64,000 bases of DNA. Source: Streptomyces griseochromogenes (lineage in GTDB: Bacteria; Actinomycetota; Actinomycetes; Streptomycetales; Streptomycetaceae). The position numbers and the translations under genes are program-made. Of the stretch, positions 20,770-29,485 are shown piece by piece; the stretch's first letter is position 1, and each line of letters begins with the position of its first letter. The stretch is from positions 186,001 through 250,000 of the forward strand of contig NZ_CP016279.1 of NCBI RefSeq assembly GCF_001542625.1. Reading direction: 5' to 3'. The notes beneath the pieces are model-generated. The model saw only the letters and a list, made by a program, of their open reading frames with translations, did not search any database and was not told where the DNA came from.

Positions 20770-20867
20770 GTTGAAAGAAGAGCCGGCGTCGGACCGTGGT
20801 AGCGACCGCCGTCACGGCGGTCATCGGTTGCGCTGCGCGTCCGACTACTGGGGAGAGTGCATGTCGG

Positions 20868-22064
20868 TCAGGCGGCCATCTCGCCTCGTATCCGGTCCAA
20901 GAACTGGGAGGCTGTGGCGTGCTGGGTGGGCAGTCGTGTCCCCGCCGTACGCGTGATGCGCTGCAGCTGGTGCGGCAGCCGCTGTGTCACCGCCTCGCGG
21001 ATGGCGATGTCCAGCGACCGGGCGGCACCCATACGGTCGTCGGCGAGCAACTGGACGTGGGCCACAGTCACCAGCTCGATCACGCGCCATTGGGGAGCCA
21101 CGACGGTCGTGGGCACCGGGCTGTCTTCCACCAGCTGCATGGCCACCCTGGTGCGGCCTGTGGAGACGAGGCCGCGCAGGCGGATTTCGTGCAGGGAGAA
21201 GGGGTTGAACAGGCTGGTGTGGTCGACGCTGTCCAGGAGGCCCTCGGTCTCTCGCATCACGCGGTCGAAGAGAGCACCGTTGCCCAGTGCGCCGGCGGCT
21301 CGGGCGAGGAGCGGCAGGGCAGCGGCGCGAGCGGTGTCGTCCGGGGCTGTGGCGGCGGCCCGGCACAGTCGTTGGACGGCTGCGCCCCGCAGGTTAGCTT
21401 TGCGTAGCTCGTTGCCGTGCATGCGCAGTACGTACGAGGTCATGCGCGCGTCCTCGAAGTACTCTGCGATCTCCAGGCTCTTGGCCGTCCAGTGCGCGGC
21501 AGTGGCGAGGCGTTCCTCCGGCAGTACGTTGCCCAAGGCGACGCCGAGGCCGACGCGGGCTCGGCCAAGCAAATGCACCACATCGCGCTCGGTGTGGCCG
21601 TCCGCGATGAGGGACTCGAGGCGGGCGACGACCGGCAATAACTCGGAGACCGCTTCGGAGGCGTGCCCAGACTGGCGGGCGATCTCGGCGAGTCGGACGG
21701 TCGACTCGCCGAACTGGATCATGGCCCGGTGGTCGGTGTCGGTCGGGTCGGTGACACCGAGAACATGCGCCGGCAGGCACAGGGCTTCGCAGATCCGGCG
21801 GCGGGAGCCGATGTCATCGAGGGACCGCTTCCCCAGCTCCAGGGCCGAGATGTACGTCTTGTCGTAGCCGAGGAGTTCACCGAGCGCTGTCTGGTTCAGT
21901 CCATGCACGCGGCGGTAGAAGCGCATGATGTCGGCCAAGTCCCTGGTAGCCAGGACCAACTGGGCCTGTGGCGTTGCCCAGTGCCACTGGGCGTGCCGGG
22001 TCGAAGGCCGAGCAAGCGGCGGCCGGTCCTGACCCACTCGTGTCGCCACCTCACCCCCGGCCAC
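20868..22064 (-). CDS. XRE-family regulator with TPR-like C-terminal domain
   Basis: 398 residues. A cro/XRE helix-turn-helix covers about residues 38-95 ([20 protein letters not shown], then [16 protein letters not shown]). It is followed by about 300 residues of helical repeats ([58 protein letters not shown]) of the kind that bind peptides or small signals in Streptomyces regulators. The GTG start lies seven bases after the Nudix stop, so the two are one operon. The first 77 codons are duplicated almost exactly at 28508-28739. Confidence 0.88.
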
Positions 22065-22572
22065 GGTCGGCTACATCCGCTCGTACTCGTCCACGGCCGC
22101 CGACCCGGTGTTTACCCGGCCGTACCAGGCGGCGATGGCCTGCTTGTAGCCGTCCGGCATGTTCAGGCCAAGCACCTCGTCCGCGCTGAACATACCCAGC
22201 TGCTTGTGTTCATGACTGACGACCGGGGACCGGTCGGGAGTCAGCACGGTGCAGCCGTAGGTCACGATCAGTACGCGTCGCCCGGGGATGGGCTGATAGA
22301 TCCACACACCACTGTCGATGAGCGGGCCGGCCTCGACGTCCCAACCGGTCTCCTCCTGGATCTCACGCTCCAGCGCCCGCTCCGGACTCGTGTCCGGTAG
22401 CTGCACGCCATCTCCCGAGCCGATCTCCAGGCGGCCTCCGGGTAGTTCCCACTCGTCACGCTCGTTTCGCAGCAGTAGGACGCGAGCATGCGCGTCGAGC
22501 GCAACGCCCTTCACGGAGACGGGCCAGAGCGGCGGCGTGTACGTCATGACGATCCTCGTCCTGCGATGTGCG
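21833..22572. repeat. 740-bp direct repeat, copy 1
   Basis: Positions 21833-22572 recur at 28508-29247 with constant offset 6,675 and the same orientation; comparing them line by line I found one difference (A at 22399, G at 29074). The repeat holds the complete Nudix gene and the 5' 77 codons of the XRE regulator. Near identity indicates a recent duplication, and recombination between copies would remove 6,675 bp. Confidence 0.92.
22071..22547 (-). CDS. Nudix hydrolase, copy 1
   Basis: 158 residues. The Nudix box can be traced as GGRLEIGSGDG, then SPERALEREIQEETGW: the Gly, the Arg-Glu pair and the EExG glutamates are present, but about ten extra residues separate the first Gly from the helix, an insertion relative to GX5EX7REUXEEXGU. 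It would hydrolyse a nucleoside-diphosphate-linked substrate; which one is unknown. ATG with GAGG upstream, first gene of an operon with the XRE-TPR regulator. A second copy at 28746-29222 differs by one residue (Leu here, Pro there) inside the insertion. Confidence 0.88.
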   Translation of the reverse strand: MTYTPPLWPVSVKGVALDAHARVLLLRNERDEWELPGGRLEIGSGDGVQLPDTSPERALEREIQEETGWDVEAGPLIDSGVWIYQPIPGRRVLIVTYGCTVLTPDRSPVVSHEHKQLGMFSADEVLGLNMPDGYKQAIAAWYGRVNTGSAAVDEYERM

Positions 22573-22715
22573 AGCCGGGCCTTCGGAACGTAGCACGCGT
22601 TCTCCAACCAACCGCCCACGCGTCCGTTTTGCCCGAGTCGACAATCAGTCGCTTTACCGCGACCACCCTGCCTTCCCACTCTGATCTCACCGATCCCGAT
22701 CGAAGGAGTACGGCG

Positions 22716-23516
22716 ATGCTCGACGCCTCCGCAGGCTCCGAGAGGTTCTTCGCTGACCACTACGTCAACCTCCGCGCCCCGCACGCCAGTGACGCCATCG
22801 CCGCACAGCTTCGGGACACCGGCCTCGTCACCCTCAATGGACTGACTACACGGCAAGCGGTCCTGGTGTCCGCCTCCCAGCCGATGGAGATCACGCCCCA
22901 CCCACATGGCGCCCCGGACGGCTTGACGCTGATCCATGACACGGGCGGCCACGCCCACTGCACTGGCTTCGCCGGACTCGGAAACGGAGAACTCCTCGCC
23001 CACACCGAGAGGTCAGGCACCCCCAAACCGCCACGCCTGATTCTCCTGGTCTGTCTTCAACCCGCCTCGACGGGCGGCGAGACAATCCTCACCGACGGAC
23101 TCGATATCCACGCCCGCCTCGCCAGCCAGAACCGAGCAGCAGCGATCGCATTCAGCCAGCCCCGGACCGCCTACTTCGGAACGGGCACCGGCCATGCTTC
23201 CCAAGTCTTCACCGTTGAGGCCGACGGCCGGATCTCCATACGGCTGCGCCAGGACGGTCTCGCCCGCTGGAGCCCGTTCGTCCAGCCCTACCTGCCAGCT
23301 CTCCGCACCGCCATCGCCGCCAGCCAGCATCGCCTCACGCTCCAGGTCGGACAGGGCTATCTGCTGGACAACCACCGCTGGCTGCACGCGCGCACGCGTT
23401 TTACCGGGGACCGCCGCTTGCTGCGCGCCCTGGGAGCGCCACACGTCGTCCTTCCGAACGGCTTCACCCCCTGCCCGACAGCCTCCGTGCTGCCCATGAC
23501 GAGTGGGGCCGTCTGA
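22716..23516 (+). CDS. TauD/clavaminate synthase-like 2OG-Fe(II) oxygenase
   Basis: 266 residues. The iron site is readable: HTE in GELLAHTERSGTP near residue 94 (the HxE variant used by clavaminate synthase) and the distal His with the 2-oxoglutarate Arg in LDNHRWLHARTRF near residue 225. LLVCLQPASTGGETILTDG matches the TauD/GAB core strand. It should hydroxylate or desaturate an amino acid, peptide or small metabolite. Start ATG with CGAAGGAG. First of four same-strand genes (gaps 53, 62 and 5 bp) ending in a PIMT-like methyltransferase, which suggests the two small peptides between are substrates. Confidence 0.85.
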   Translation: MLDASAGSERFFADHYVNLRAPHASDAIAAQLRDTGLVTLNGLTTRQAVLVSASQPMEITPHPHGAPDGLTLIHDTGGHAHCTGFAGLGNGELLAHTERSGTPKPPRLILLVCLQPASTGGETILTDGLDIHARLASQNRAAAIAFSQPRTAYFGTGTGHASQVFTVEADGRISIRLRQDGLARWSPFVQPYLPALRTAIAASQHRLTLQVGQGYLLDNHRWLHARTRFTGDRRLLRALGAPHVVLPNGFTPCPTASVLPMTSGAV

Positions 23517-23569
23517 TGGGCCCTCAACTCCGGCCGAATCCAGCCCATCTACACCGCAAGGAAACTCTC

Positions 23570-23656
23570 ATGAGCAAGGAGAAAAATCCGCCTGCGCCAC
23601 CGCAGCCGCAACCGTCGGGCCCCTCTAAGCCGCGACCGGCGGACCGGGACGGGTAG
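23570..23656 (+). CDS. 28-residue Pro-rich charged peptide
   Basis: ATG 23570 with AAGGA eight bases upstream opens a 28-codon frame: MSKEKNPPAPPQ, then a Pro/Ser/Lys-rich stretch, ending KPRPADRDG. No hydrophobic segment and no Cys. The C-terminal Asp-Gly is the dipeptide most prone to aspartimide formation. It lies between an oxygenase and a methyltransferase gene and may be a second precursor or a regulatory leader peptide. Too short for ordinary gene callers; evidence is position, ribosome binding site and composition. Confidence 0.5.
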   Translation: MSKEKNPPAPPQPQPSGPSKPRPADRDG

Positions 23657-23718
23657 TTGCCAGGACGGCGCGGAAAATCCAGCACACCAGCGTCAGGGTG
23701 ATCCGAAGGAGGAATCTC

Positions 23719-23829
23719 ATGGCGGGCAAGCACGGAGACGGCAAAGGCGGCGCCGACGGCGACAAGAAGCAGTCACCGAAGGAGAGCGACGGCCAGTGGA
23801 CCAAGCCGATCAGCAATCCGAAGAAGTGA
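23719..23829 (+). CDS. 36-residue charged peptide, candidate RiPP precursor
   Basis: ATG 23719 follows a near-perfect AGGAGGAA site. The 36-residue product is Lys/Asp/Gly-rich with three Asp-Gly steps (MAGKHGDGKG, GADGDKK, KESDGQWTK) and ends PISNPKK. There is one aromatic residue, Trp27, next to the third Asp-Gly. The stop is five bases before the ATG of a PIMT-like methyltransferase gene, so the two are tightly coupled. PIMT-like enzymes act on Asp residues of RiPP precursors, and Asp-Gly is the favoured site; this gene therefore fits a precursor of the imiditide kind. Function is inferred. Confidence 0.7.
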   Translation: MAGKHGDGKGGADGDKKQSPKESDGQWTKPISNPKK

Positions 23830-23834
23830 AGCCG

Positions 23835-24935
23835 ATGACATTGCAGAAGCGGCTGGTCGAGATCCTGACCGACAAAGGCGCGCTGCCGCCCGAGTGGCGA
23901 GAGGCCGTTGAGTCCGTCGACCGCGGCCTGTTCATCCCCGACCGGTTCGAGGGCGGCGACAAGGAGGCCGACCCGGCACAGTGGGCGCGGCTCGCCTACG
24001 GCGACGTACCCGTGGTCACGCAGGTCGATGACGGCGAGGAGGGCGGGCCCGGAAGGCCGACGTCATCCAGTTCGATGCCGTCGATGATGCTCGAAATGCT
24101 GTCGCTCCTCGACGTCCACGACGGGCACCGGATCGGGGAAGTCGGCGCCGGTACGGGCCTGAACGCGGCATGGATGGCCCACCGGCTGTGCCGCGAGAAC
24201 GTCGTCACCATTGAGTACGACCCGGCTGTCGCGGAGCAGGCGCGGGCCAACTTGAAGACGGCCGGACTGCCCGTGGTGGTGATCACCGGCGACGGCATGG
24301 CCGGTATTCCGGCCTTCTCTCCGCTGGACCGGCTCATCTGCACTTGCACTGTCCGTACGGTCCCGTACGCGTGGGTCGAGCAGACCCCCGGCGGGAAGAT
24401 CGTCACCCCCTGGGGCGGGTCGTTCCATTCGTACTCGTTCGCTGTCCTGGACGTGTCCGACGGTACGGCGCAAGGGCGGTTCACCGGCTACCCGGAGTTC
24501 ATGTGGGCCCGGAACCAGCGGGGTCGACAATGGGCCATCGGTGACGTGTACCACCGGCAGGAGGGAGTGAAGTCAACCACCCCCGTCGACCCCCACGACA
24601 TCGACAACGACGCCGACGCCCTCTTCGCGATCGGCACCCGGCTCCGTGACGCCTACCCGAAGCTCCACCACGCCGACGACGGCTCCAGGGAAGCCACGTA
24701 CTGGATCCTCGGTGACGACCGGACCTCATGGGCGACGGTGGAGTACGTACCCGGCCGTACGGAGTTCGAGGTCGAGCAGTACGGTCCCCGGCGGTTGTGG
24801 GACGAGACAGCGGCCGCCTGGGAGTGGTGGCTGGCCCAGGGGCGGCCGGCCCGGGACCGGTTCGGGCTGACCGTCGATCGAGACGGCCAACGGGTATGGC
24901 TCGATGAGCCTGGCTGGCTGGTGCCCGCCTCCTAG
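23835..24935 (+). CDS. PIMT-like SAM methyltransferase (RiPP-modifying type)
   Basis: 366 residues. The N-terminal helical part (LVEILTDKGALPPEWREAVE, then GLFIPDRFEGG) is typical of protein-isoaspartate methyltransferase homologues in peptide-modification loci. SSSSMPSMMLEMLSLLDV replaces the SQP strand, then motif I is HRIGEVGAGTGLNAAWMA near residue 110 and LDRLICTCTVRTVPYAWVEQ is the block shared with methyltransferases of ATP-grasp peptide systems. An extra C-terminal domain of about 140 residues follows. No ATP-grasp gene is present. GTG 23796, inside the precursor gene with GGAGAG upstream, is an alternative start. Confidence 0.85.
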   Translation: MTLQKRLVEILTDKGALPPEWREAVESVDRGLFIPDRFEGGDKEADPAQWARLAYGDVPVVTQVDDGEEGGPGRPTSSSSMPSMMLEMLSLLDVHDGHRIGEVGAGTGLNAAWMAHRLCRENVVTIEYDPAVAEQARANLKTAGLPVVVITGDGMAGIPAFSPLDRLICTCTVRTVPYAWVEQTPGGKIVTPWGGSFHSYSFAVLDVSDGTAQGRFTGYPEFMWARNQRGRQWAIGDVYHRQEGVKSTTPVDPHDIDNDADALFAIGTRLRDAYPKLHHADDGSREATYWILGDDRTSWATVEYVPGRTEFEVEQYGPRRLWDETAAAWEWWLAQGRPARDRFGLTVDRDGQRVWLDEPGWLVPAS

Positions 24936-24939
24936 ACCG

Positions 24940-25188
24940 TCAGTCGGCGGACTCGCCTCCCCCGGATGCGTCCGTTACGAACGATCCCATGCCGGGCGTG
25001 GTGATGATCAAGCCGTCCTCCCGGAGGGCGGCCGTCGCCTTTCGAACGGTAATGCGCGCCACGCCGAATTCCTGCTCCAGACGGACTTCGGAAATCAGTG
25101 TGCGAGGCGCGTACTCGCCGGTCGTGATCCTCTCGCGAAGGACATCGGCGATCTGCGCCCACTTGGGCCGGGTGGGGTCGAACTCCAT
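24940..25188 (-). CDS. Small GntR-family winged-helix regulator
   Basis: 82 residues, consisting only of the GntR DNA-binding domain: KWAQIADVLRERITTGEYAP, then SEVRLEQEFGVARITVRKAT, then LREDGLIITTPGMGSFVTD. Such minimal GntR proteins are frequent in Streptomyces mobile DNA. ATG 25188 is favoured; the frame extends to 25227. It converges on the methyltransferase gene, and 56 bp upstream is an inverted repeat that faces the small genes at 25359, which it probably controls together with itself. Confidence 0.85.
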   Translation of the reverse strand: MEFDPTRPKWAQIADVLRERITTGEYAPRTLISEVRLEQEFGVARITVRKATAALREDGLIITTPGMGSFVTDASGGGESAD

Positions 25189-25243
25189 CACGGCCCGGAC
25201 TGTACGCACGGACTGACACCCGAACATAGATGCCTACATGAGC

Positions 25244-26364: not shown

Positions 26365-26382
26365 CGTACGAGGGGGATGAGC

Positions 26383-28002
26383 ATGGGGATGCCGCCCGAC
26401 TTGAAGGTTGTGGCGCACGGCATGATCGGAGCGTCCATGGAGATGGTCAAGTCCGTGATGCCCGGCGCTCGCGACACCACCATCGCGCTGTTCCACGAGC
26501 TGGACCGGCAGAAGGGCATGGCGGGCGACGACGAGGCGGGGCGTGCCTTCGCGCAGGTCTACAAGTCGGCGGCGGCCACGACGCTCGACAAGATGGGCTT
26601 CAGTTCCTATGTGATGGGGGAGACGGGCAAGGGCCTGATGCGTAACGCGCGTGAGTTCGTGGCTCGTGAGAGCCAAATTGCCTCAGGAATCCTCGGGCAG
26701 CAGATCGATCTGACGACGAGCATGGGCAACCCCGCCGAAGACTGCACGGAGAGCTTCCTCGGTCTCGGCCAGGAGCTTCCCGAGGTCGTGGGGGACACCG
26801 CCTGGTACGACCAATACGCGCCCGCCGGCATCAGTGATCGTTTCCGGGGTTCGCCCGAGAAGTTGCGCGACGTGGCGGGGGCATGGCGACAGGCGGCCAA
26901 GTTGGTGGTGCGGTTCCTTGAGGACGCACAGGCGTGCGCGCACACGGCCGACAAGGCGCACTCCGGTGAGGCAGCCGACGCCTTCCGGAAGTACTTCGCC
27001 GGCTTCGTTGGGTTCGCGGCTCCCCCGGAGCAGGCGCATGAGAGCGAGACTCTGGTCGCGAACCTGGTAGCCGCCTGCGGGCAGTTGGCCAAGGCCTGTG
27101 ACCGCTATGCCGATCACGTGGAAGACGCCAAGCAGAAGATAGTGCAGCATCAGGTGGACCCGTTCAGCGTGGACATGCCGTGGGATTCACCGATGTTCGG
27201 TGGTAACGGCTACGACGGCGGCCTGAAGGATGCGGTCCTCTCGGACCCTTGGATACACCAGCTGGGCAACGTGGCACACGCCCTCGACAGCTCAGAGAAG
27301 CGGGTGAAACTGCCGCACGGCTCGGATGAACGTCCGGGAGCTCCCTTCGGTCCGTTCATCCCGGTGCCGGTGCCGGTGCCGGTTCCCTTGCTCCTGGCCT
27401 CCTACCGCGGAGGGATGTCGGGCATCGTGCCGACTGCGTATGTCGACCCTGACCCGAGCATCCCTTACCGGGACCCTATGCCGCCGGCGGCAGGCACGAC
27501 GCGGCTGCTGACCGACGCTGAACGCAAGGAGTTCGAGAAGTTCGTCGACGGGTTGGAGGCGAAGGGCTTCGGGAGCAACGCCACGAATCCACATACACCC
27601 GAGAACGAATACCAGTTGCGGACGGCTGGCTATCCGGAGCGGAAGATACCCCTGGGTCCTGAGGCCAAGAGACCGTTCAAGGCCGCGGACGGCATGCGTC
27701 CTGCGGACGGCTACATGATCGACTCGAAGTACGTGAACAACGAGAAGGACTGTTGGCGTAAGCCGGAGACGTTGAACCAGCTGGAGGACACCTTTCGCAA
27801 GGACGGGACGAAGAAGTGGAACAAGGAGGCGTTCTTCAAAGGCCTCGATGAGGGTGAGCTCAAGGAGTACGGCAGCGCGATCAAGAAGCACAAGGAGATA
27901 CGCGGCCTGGAGATCATGACGAACGACAAGGACGCGGCAGCCTACTGGCAGACCCTGATGGCAGAGCAGGGCGTCAAAGGGACCGCCCAATACGTGCCCT
28001 AG
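26383..28002 (+). CDS. Polymorphic toxin with restriction-endonuclease-fold C-terminal domain
   Basis: 539 residues. The N-terminal 280 are long helices with a WXG100/LXG-like hairpin (VAGAWRQAAKLVVRFLEDA, then HSGEAADAFRKYFAGFVGFA), the part used for delivery by type VII-like export. A Pro/Val linker (PVPVPVPVPLLL) separates the C-terminal toxin domain from about residue 385: NEYQLRTAGYPERKIPLG, then ADGYMIDSKYVNN, whose Asp and DxK fit the nuclease core of Tox-REase domains. ATG 26383 sits six bases after AGGGGG; ATG 26377 is too close. The next gene is probably its immunity protein. Third positions are richer in A/T than in backbone genes. Confidence 0.8.
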   Translation: MGMPPDLKVVAHGMIGASMEMVKSVMPGARDTTIALFHELDRQKGMAGDDEAGRAFAQVYKSAAATTLDKMGFSSYVMGETGKGLMRNAREFVARESQIASGILGQQIDLTTSMGNPAEDCTESFLGLGQELPEVVGDTAWYDQYAPAGISDRFRGSPEKLRDVAGAWRQAAKLVVRFLEDAQACAHTADKAHSGEAADAFRKYFAGFVGFAAPPEQAHESETLVANLVAACGQLAKACDRYADHVEDAKQKIVQHQVDPFSVDMPWDSPMFGGNGYDGGLKDAVLSDPWIHQLGNVAHALDSSEKRVKLPHGSDERPGAPFGPFIPVPVPVPVPLLLASYRGGMSGIVPTAYVDPDPSIPYRDPMPPAAGTTRLLTDAERKEFEKFVDGLEAKGFGSNATNPHTPENEYQLRTAGYPERKIPLGPEAKRPFKAADGMRPADGYMIDSKYVNNEKDCWRKPETLNQLEDTFRKDGTKKWNKEAFFKGLDEGELKEYGSAIKKHKEIRGLEIMTNDKDAAAYWQTLMAEQGVKGTAQYVP

Positions 28003-28020: not shown

Positions 28021-28458
28021 ATGAACATTGAGGAATACACCACCTCCTTCCTGCTGTACGCGCCGGCAAAGAACCCTCATGGCTGGCAGCTCGACCTGAA
28101 CGCGTTCGGCGAGGCTCTCCGTGAATCCTTCCCCGAGGTCGGCTATCAGCCGGAGGAGGGCCACCCGGCTCGTCTGGGCATCTGGGTACTGACCGCCGAC
28201 GGGACCGAGTTCGACGGCTTCGCCGACAATGAGACCCGGGACACCATCGCTCTGCGTGGCAACACGATCACCGAGGTGGCGTCCTTCATCGCCTGGCTGC
28301 GTGACTCCTACGTTCCTTCGCCCGACCTGATCCGCTTCACCACCGAAGTGGCCTTCGCACGCGGCATCGAGACCGATTGGCGTATCCCGGCCGTCGGCGG
28401 GGTCGACCGGATCGAGGAGGAGCTGCGGCAGCATCTGCTGGTTGTGGTCGGCGGATAG
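28021..28458 (+). CDS. Probable immunity protein for the upstream nuclease toxin
   Basis: 145 residues, acidic overall ([52 protein letters not shown]), no signal peptide or membrane segment. It starts 18 bp after the toxin stop with GAAGGA upstream. Small acidic cytoplasmic proteins in this position neutralise polymorphic toxins. I do not recognise the immunity family by sequence, so the role is inferred from context. Confidence 0.65.
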
Positions 28459-28507: not shown

Positions 28508-28739
28508 CCAGCTCCAGGGCCGAGATGTACGTCTTGTCGTAGCCGAGGAGTTCACCGAGCGCTGTCTGGTTCAGTCCATGCACGCGGCGGTAGAAGCGCA
28601 TGATGTCGGCCAAGTCCCTGGTAGCCAGGACCAACTGGGCCTGTGGCGTTGCCCAGTGCCACTGGGCGTGCCGGGTCGAAGGCCGAGCAAGCGGCGGCCG
28701 GTCCTGACCCACTCGTGTCGCCACCTCACCCCCGGCCAC
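28508..28739 (-). pseudogene. Truncated copy of the XRE-TPR regulator
   Basis: The first 77 codons, including the whole helix-turn-helix, are identical to the regulator at 20868-22064 (up to [11 protein letters not shown]). The duplication then ends and the frame reads unrelated codons antisense to the immunity gene as far as 28308. It keeps its GTG and the Nudix gene upstream. If translated, the product would be a DNA-binding domain with a random tail and might compete with the full regulator. Confidence 0.85.
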
Positions 28740-28745
28740 GGTCGG

Positions 28746-29222
28746 CTACATCCGCTCGTACTCGTCCACGGCCGCCGACCCGGTGTTTACCCGGCCGTAC
28801 CAGGCGGCGATGGCCTGCTTGTAGCCGTCCGGCATGTTCAGGCCAAGCACCTCGTCCGCGCTGAACATACCCAGCTGCTTGTGTTCATGACTGACGACCG
28901 GGGACCGGTCGGGAGTCAGCACGGTGCAGCCGTAGGTCACGATCAGTACGCGTCGCCCGGGGATGGGCTGATAGATCCACACACCACTGTCGATGAGCGG
29001 GCCGGCCTCGACGTCCCAACCGGTCTCCTCCTGGATCTCACGCTCCAGCGCCCGCTCCGGACTCGTGTCCGGTGGCTGCACGCCATCTCCCGAGCCGATC
29101 TCCAGGCGGCCTCCGGGTAGTTCCCACTCGTCACGCTCGTTTCGCAGCAGTAGGACGCGAGCATGCGCGTCGAGCGCAACGCCCTTCACGGAGACGGGCC
29201 AGAGCGGCGGCGTGTACGTCAT
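28746..29222 (-). CDS. Nudix hydrolase, copy 2
   Basis: Identical in length (158 residues) to the copy at 22071-22547, differing by Leu to Pro in the ten-residue insertion within the Nudix box; catalytic residues (REIQEETGW) are unchanged. Its own ATG and GAGG are preserved, but sequence upstream of 29247 differs, so it must use a different promoter. It is followed by the truncated regulator rather than the full one. Confidence 0.85.
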   Translation of the reverse strand: MTYTPPLWPVSVKGVALDAHARVLLLRNERDEWELPGGRLEIGSGDGVQPPDTSPERALEREIQEETGWDVEAGPLIDSGVWIYQPIPGRRVLIVTYGCTVLTPDRSPVVSHEHKQLGMFSADEVLGLNMPDGYKQAIAAWYGRVNTGSAAVDEYERM

Positions 29223-29485
29223 GACGATCCTCGTCCTGCGATGTGCGGAGCATTCTGCCGAGAGGTCCGCCAGAGCGGAGTCGTCCGGCTGCGAGATGAC
29301 GTGGGGGCCTGGCGGCTTCGTAGGTGTGAGACCAGAACGGTTGCCGCCGACTGCGGGCAACAGATGTTGACCAAGCAGGGCGAGAAAGCTGCAGAGTTCC
29401 GAGAACACCTGGTCGCCGTGCCGGAGCAGGGCCGCTCGCCGTGGCGCCGGAATCGGGTTCGGCCGTCGGCGATCAGGAGGGTCGA

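Follow-up and report, generated by a model that had tools for sequence, protein, structure and literature searches.

A probable two-gene imiditide unit with an S-D-G-x-W precursor beside an oxygenase gene in Streptomyces griseochromogenes

A gene for a 36-residue peptide and the PIMT-like methyltransferase gene directly downstream of it very probably (roughly 0.86) make up a unit of two genes of the imiditide class (type I pamtides), to which the neighbouring 2OG oxygenase gene and a 28-residue open reading frame probably do not belong. The pair is a new example of an already described class. The locus had been predicted to be of an undescribed kind, but imiditides, or type I pamtides, have been in print since 2023 (available text of PMC10787088 and PMC13001092). 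The available text of PMC10787088 assigns more than 1,500 clusters with such a methyltransferase as primary enzyme to the pamtides and reports the reaction as demonstrated for SpaA/SpaM, whereas that of PMC13001092 treats imiditides and type I pamtides as one group, with 1,414 members.

Organization of the locus

The window, i.e., the whole stretch of 64,000 nucleotides that was analysed, corresponds to positions 186001-250000 of a single contig of 10.76 Mb. The four + strand open reading frames of the original prediction (22716-24935) were confirmed, with all coordinates and the gaps of 53, 62, and 5 bp correct; the stop codon of the oxygenase and the start of the 36-residue peptide are 202 bp apart. 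The features considered below are as follows.

20868-22064, - strand: XRE-type regulator (HTH_31, 3.4e-7), conserved neighbour of the oxygenase (23/24 oxygenase loci)
22071-22547, - strand: Nudix gene (NUDIX, 5.8e-11), conserved neighbour of the oxygenase (23/24 oxygenase loci)
22716-23516, + strand: TauD-type 2OG oxygenase, 266 aa (Pfam TauD, 2.3e-21), judged to be an unrelated neighbour
23524-23699, no strand: junction of two modules, bounded by alignment ends and starts, without similarity to any compared locus
23570-23656, + strand: Pro-rich 28-aa open reading frame inside the junction, probably outside the unit and possibly no gene
23705-23713, + strand: GAAGGAGGA, the ribosome binding site preceding the 36-aa reading frame, read from the sequence
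23719-23829, + strand: probable 36-aa imiditide precursor of the S-D-G-x-W type, conserved before the methyltransferase, with dN < dS; Asp24 would be the probable modified residue
23835-24935, + strand: PIMT-like aspartyl O-methyltransferase (PAMT), 366 aa, with an extra C-terminal domain and WxxxGxP
24943-25227, - strand: short, convergent GntR-type regulator (GntR, 3.5e-13), outside the conserved stretch

A promoter and terminator scan found neither promoter-like nor terminator-like sites on the + strand in the span from the oxygenase to the methyltransferase and, with no + strand terminator between oxygenase and peptide, a single transcript is possible.

Window positions 21833-22572 and 28508-29247 carry a 740-bp direct repeat whose copies differ by a single mismatch. 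It is a copy of the Nudix gene and of the start of the XRE gene, and it brackets a segment that holds the oxygenase, the imiditide pair, the GntR gene, and a toxin-like gene; a repeat flanking this segment suggests a recent duplication or an integration by recombination. Within the same segment, a 541-aa protein (window 26377-28002) with WXG100-like and Tox-REase-2 domains is directly followed by a 145-aa open reading frame (window 28021-28458) without a Pfam match, and the two resemble a gene pair for a polymorphic toxin and its immunity protein.

The methyltransferase and its precursor peptides

The 366-residue methyltransferase matched Pfam PCMT over residues 5-195 (1.3e-26). Its AlphaFold2 model, computed from an 18-sequence alignment (mean pLDDT 91, pTM 0.90), had as its best PDB fold match the two-domain PIMT of Thermotoga maritima (1DL5; E 2e-23, 366 columns, 22-23% identity), which is also its best solved relative by sequence. 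The length of the protein, the extent of the PCMT match, and the two-domain fold match give a PIMT homologue with an additional C-terminal domain longer than 100 aa, as in imiditides. W332, G336, and P338 of the WxxxGxP motif were invariant in 18/18 sequences. According to the available text of PMC13001092, this motif and the extra C-terminal domain are marks of the RiPP methyltransferases of this class, and canonical PIMTs are without the domain. The best NCBIfam model was TIGR04188, whose 296 bits fall below the cut-off of 380. A second TIGR04188-like match was seen elsewhere in the window's genome (L161, G000:C1:9418375-9419073; 247 of 363 model positions), and 27 plasmid records hold a relative of the methyltransferase, all below 60% identity.

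Unbiased evidence for a precursor comes from an enzyme-first sample, the 20 best methyltransferase matches, besides the window's own, from 295 same-genus genomes. A small Asp-rich peptide was found upstream in 18 of these 20 loci: the same peptide family as in the window stood directly upstream in nine, a second type (near MGKKGGDHSGKPDTSDSDGHRDKPPGPTKPYEPPKK) in six, and other Asp/Gly-rich peptides in three (L048-L050), while no recognised peptide was found in the remaining two (L044, L046). The third-type label matched none of 12 further loci tried and the type thus rests on three loci. The GntR-type gene of the window had no match in any of the 20 loci.

Conversely, the peptide profile (consensus GKHGDGKGG..GDK.QSPKESDGQW..P..PPKK) matched 17 of 392 same-genus genomes, with a methyltransferase match just downstream in 17/17 loci. 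When one genome was scanned for each GTDB species, also by means of peptide patterns, 27 named loci were obtained, which belong to Streptomyces, Kitasatospora, and Streptantibioticus, and in all 27 the methyltransferase alignment starts between -3 and +29 nt from the peptide stop; the two sets overlap, and their counts are therefore not additive. Among 246 genomes sampled across the class, the peptide was found in the window's genome only. The nearest named loci are two of Streptantibioticus ferralitis (67 and 68% identity in the methyltransferase); this species holds two copies of the S-D-G-x-W pair, L108 and L111, on different contigs. The check proposed with the original prediction, a conserved peptide beside the methyltransferase, was thus positive in all three comparisons (17/17, 27/27, and 18/20 enzyme-first). 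In three of the 17 same-genus loci (L099, L101, and L107), the methyltransferase match is split or partial beside an intact-looking precursor gene, which may reflect decay of the methyltransferase gene at these loci.

The ribosome binding site proposed for the 36-residue reading frame is present (GAAGGAGGA shortly before the ATG), and similar purine-rich stretches also precede the peptide starts of relatives. Over 23 codons of 27 distinct peptide sequences, median dN was 0.147 and median dS 0.773. Of the 351 pairs, 340 gave finite values, and in 338 of these dN was lower than dS; the first, second, and third codon positions differed on average by 0.148, 0.143, and 0.327. L121, whose upstream end lies outside the pattern, was left out of this test. 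On the basis of these rates and codon-position differences, we regard the 36-residue reading frame as a coding gene under purifying selection. The peptide is 19% Gly, 11% Asp, and 22% Lys, with a basic C-terminus, and contains one Thr, three Ser, and no Cys. It is, as in imiditides, a short conserved precursor of the Gly/Pro/Asp-rich kind directly beside the enzyme gene, its 8% Pro being below the mean of 16.8% given for the published type I set in the available text.

A tree of 35 methyltransferases, from which L127 and L129 were omitted because of a stop inside the aligned stretch, placed the enzymes with an S-D-G-x-W peptide in two separated sets of nine and 17 rows. The set of nine has a support of 100/100, and the enzymes with the second peptide type fall into a single clade within the set that holds the 17; the tree is midpoint-rooted and hence silent on whether the precursors are old or have been exchanged. 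Across the 27 named loci, the peptide is conserved at the residue level while identity to the window's enzyme falls to 38%. That the peptide is more conserved than the methyltransferase, and is shared by two lineages of the latter, suggests that its role is constrained.

The 36-residue peptide does contain the three predicted Asp-Gly steps (D7, D13, and D24), but D13 is replaced by Glu in 15 of 27 relatives, and only those at D7 and D24 are retained. As in imiditides, the precursor has highly conserved Asp residues: D7, D15, and D24 were invariant in a 16-sequence alignment, and D15 was lost once among the 27 sequences. In the latter set, the search pattern fixes H5, D7, E22, D24, G25, and W27, whose 27/27 conservation is thus by construction. 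D24 stands within S-D-G-x-W, and the second peptide type also carries a mid-peptide Asp-Gly. According to the available text of PMC13001092, Asp-Gly is the usual target in the class, NmaA having Asp-His instead. Our best guess, by analogy, is that Asp24 of Ser-Asp-Gly-Gln-Trp would be the target; D7 is a possible one. If the pair works like SpaA/SpaM and NmaA/NmaM, the methyltransferase would bind the linear peptide, partly by charge through its basic C-terminal end, and methylate the side chain of one Asp, most likely Asp24 in S-D-G-Q-W; the methyl ester would then close to an aspartimide, which could open to isoaspartate or Asp.

The oxygenase module and the junction

The oxygenase, a genuine and conserved gene, matched 25 of 392 same-genus genomes, its own included, and the neighbourhoods of all 24 other relatives were compared as two sets of 12. 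As in the window, Nudix and XRE genes lie divergently upstream in 23 of them (12/12 and 11/12), the exception being L146, a 36% partial match. This conserved trio, in which the TauD-type oxygenase is transcribed away from the XRE and Nudix genes, is seen in L078-L089 and L135-L145. The enzyme had been predicted to be of the HxE type: H96 and also H224 are invariant in 13/13 aligned sequences, whereas E98 of the motif is not. The nearest solved structures by sequence, TmpA (2e-6) and gamma-butyrobetaine dioxygenase (4e-4), are enzymes of small amines.

The predicted co-occurrence of the oxygenase with the peptide and the methyltransferase was not borne out. None of the 20 enzyme-first loci contains an oxygenase match, and neither does any of the 27 named loci, each covered over 5.9 to 16.1 kb; in the same-genus set of 17 peptide loci, covered over 2.4 to 3.1 kb apiece, only the window itself has one. 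Two other sampled genomes (G035 and G349) hold both modules, on different contigs. Methyltransferase matches were found within about 6.5 kb of four of the first 12 oxygenase relatives (L081, 46%; L082, 39%; L084, 30%; L087, 28%), none of them adjacent, and near none of the remaining 12. The match near L081 is a long open reading frame with WxxxGxP, but no peptide passed the filter there; that near L082 comes after an open reading frame that we read, without a search, as the C-terminus of an ATP-grasp protein, which points to a graspetide unit.

At the DNA level, alignments to oxygenase relatives extend at most from 20867 to 23523, those to relatives of the peptide and the methyltransferase begin at 23700, and the stretch 23560-23660 is covered by no alignment to the fetched relatives. 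A 521-bp query across the junction found both halves together in 0 of 60 other genomes, G028 matching on the oxygenase side only and G035 on the peptide side only. Since similarity breaks between the modules and the junction recurs in none of these 60 genomes, the two modules are judged, by sequence comparison, to have met in this lineage. On co-occurrence, the Nudix/XRE neighbourhood, and the breakpoint, we reject the oxygenase as a tailoring partner, and it is probably no partner of the imiditide pair. This locus thus illustrates how adjacency alone can hint at a tailoring enzyme without comparative backing.

The 28-residue open reading frame ends in Asp-Gly and its ATG is preceded by AAGGAA. 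However, it matched only its own genome among 61, none of the 60 others containing a relative, and the alignment of no fetched relative covers it. It was therefore rejected as the second precursor that had been proposed, and is probably spurious.

Alternative readings and known systems

The original prediction groups the four genes in a single cluster, whose peptide would be aspartimidylated and, through the oxygenase, also hydroxylated. The common strand, the 202 bp from the oxygenase stop to the peptide start, and the lack of a detected + strand terminator between them would fit such a cluster, and the two histidines kept in 13/13 sequences suggest that the oxygenase may be active; PAMT-like or methyltransferase matches also lie within about 6.5 kb of four of the first 12 oxygenase relatives. 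Yet those matches are never adjacent and are absent (0/12) from the second dozen, and the oxygenase sits with Nudix and XRE genes in 23/24 relatives while missing from the 20 enzyme-first, 16 of the 17 same-genus, and all 27 named loci. The separate contigs in G035 and G349, the break in similarity, and a junction found in 0/60 other genomes also speak against it, and we consider a single cluster very unlikely. Aspartimide formation combined with hydroxylation thus finds no comparative support, and it is just as improbable that an oxygenase placed beside the pair by rearrangement was recruited in this strain as a second modifying enzyme that hydroxylates the peptide, possibly on that Asp or an adjacent residue. 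The main text of PMC10787088 nowhere uses the words oxygenase, dioxygenase, or hydroxylase, and no imiditide with an oxygenase was found in the literature searched, the main texts of mostly open-access articles; an uncharacterised 2OG oxygenase is mentioned for group 15 graspetides, a different class, in the available text of PMC13097080.

Two other readings concern the methyltransferase itself. It could belong to a protein-repair or regulatory system, repairing or labelling isoaspartate, with the peptide as a regulator or leader rather than a substrate, in keeping with the PIMT fold and with nearby regulator-like genes: of the 27 named loci, 12 have XRE/DUF5753-like genes no more than 6 kb from the peptide and seven have DUF6879-like ones, Pfam names that were checked on L040 (2612-4214) only. 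Such genes indicate regulation of some kind nearby, and a regulatory link like the one noted for graspetides in the available text of PMC13097080 is possible. A repair role is nevertheless unlikely, as the C-terminal domain is absent from canonical PIMTs (available text of PMC13001092) and the residue-level conservation, Asp-Gly, and basic end of the peptide fit known substrates of such enzymes. The enzyme could also serve a graspetide on which an ATP-grasp ligase encoded elsewhere first closes ester rings: its best NCBIfam model, TIGR04188, is a graspetide-associated methyltransferase, and a single TIGR04187 ATP-grasp match in the genome exceeds the cut-off. This is the least probable of the readings, and the graspetide assignment was rejected on the sub-cut-off score (296 vs. 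380 bits) and on that ATP-grasp lying about 6 Mb away on the contig; moreover, the peptide has only one Thr and three Ser and, regulators apart, no third gene family recurs near it in more than seven of the 27 named loci. The two-gene imiditide unit remains the preferred reading. The imiditide-like layout that had been proposed was upheld, a PIMT-like enzyme with a small Asp-Gly peptide and no LanC or curated-level ATP-grasp match within 3.5 Mb; for the families searched, the nearest LanC_like match is 3.9 Mb and the nearest TIGR04187 match 3.5 Mb away.

Among known systems, the Thermotoga maritima PIMT shares the two-domain fold at only 22-23% identity, and it is not known as a peptide-modifying enzyme. 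Group 13 graspetides (graspimiditides) use a related TIGR04188 methyltransferase, whereas here no ATP-grasp gene is near and the score is below the family cut-off. In type II pamtides, or cysimiditides, the PAMT is likewise the sole modifying enzyme; their two CxxCxGxG motifs have no counterpart here, since a peptide without Cys can form no such zinc motif. The S-D-G-x-W precursors, a group not met in the imiditide main texts (SpaA and NmaA being compared by description rather than by sequence), add to the imiditides a clear and strongly conserved precursor group in Streptomyces, Kitasatospora, and Streptantibioticus that pairs with two well separated methyltransferase groups. The closest parallels, as far as their available descriptions go, are SpaA/SpaM of Streptomyces sparsogenes and NmaA/NmaM of Nonomuraea maritima, which likewise consist of two genes, with the precursor directly before the PAMT and no cyclase gene near, and the locus shares with imiditides a short Gly/Asp/Lys-rich precursor with a basic end and a PAMT with an extra C-terminal domain and WxxxGxP.
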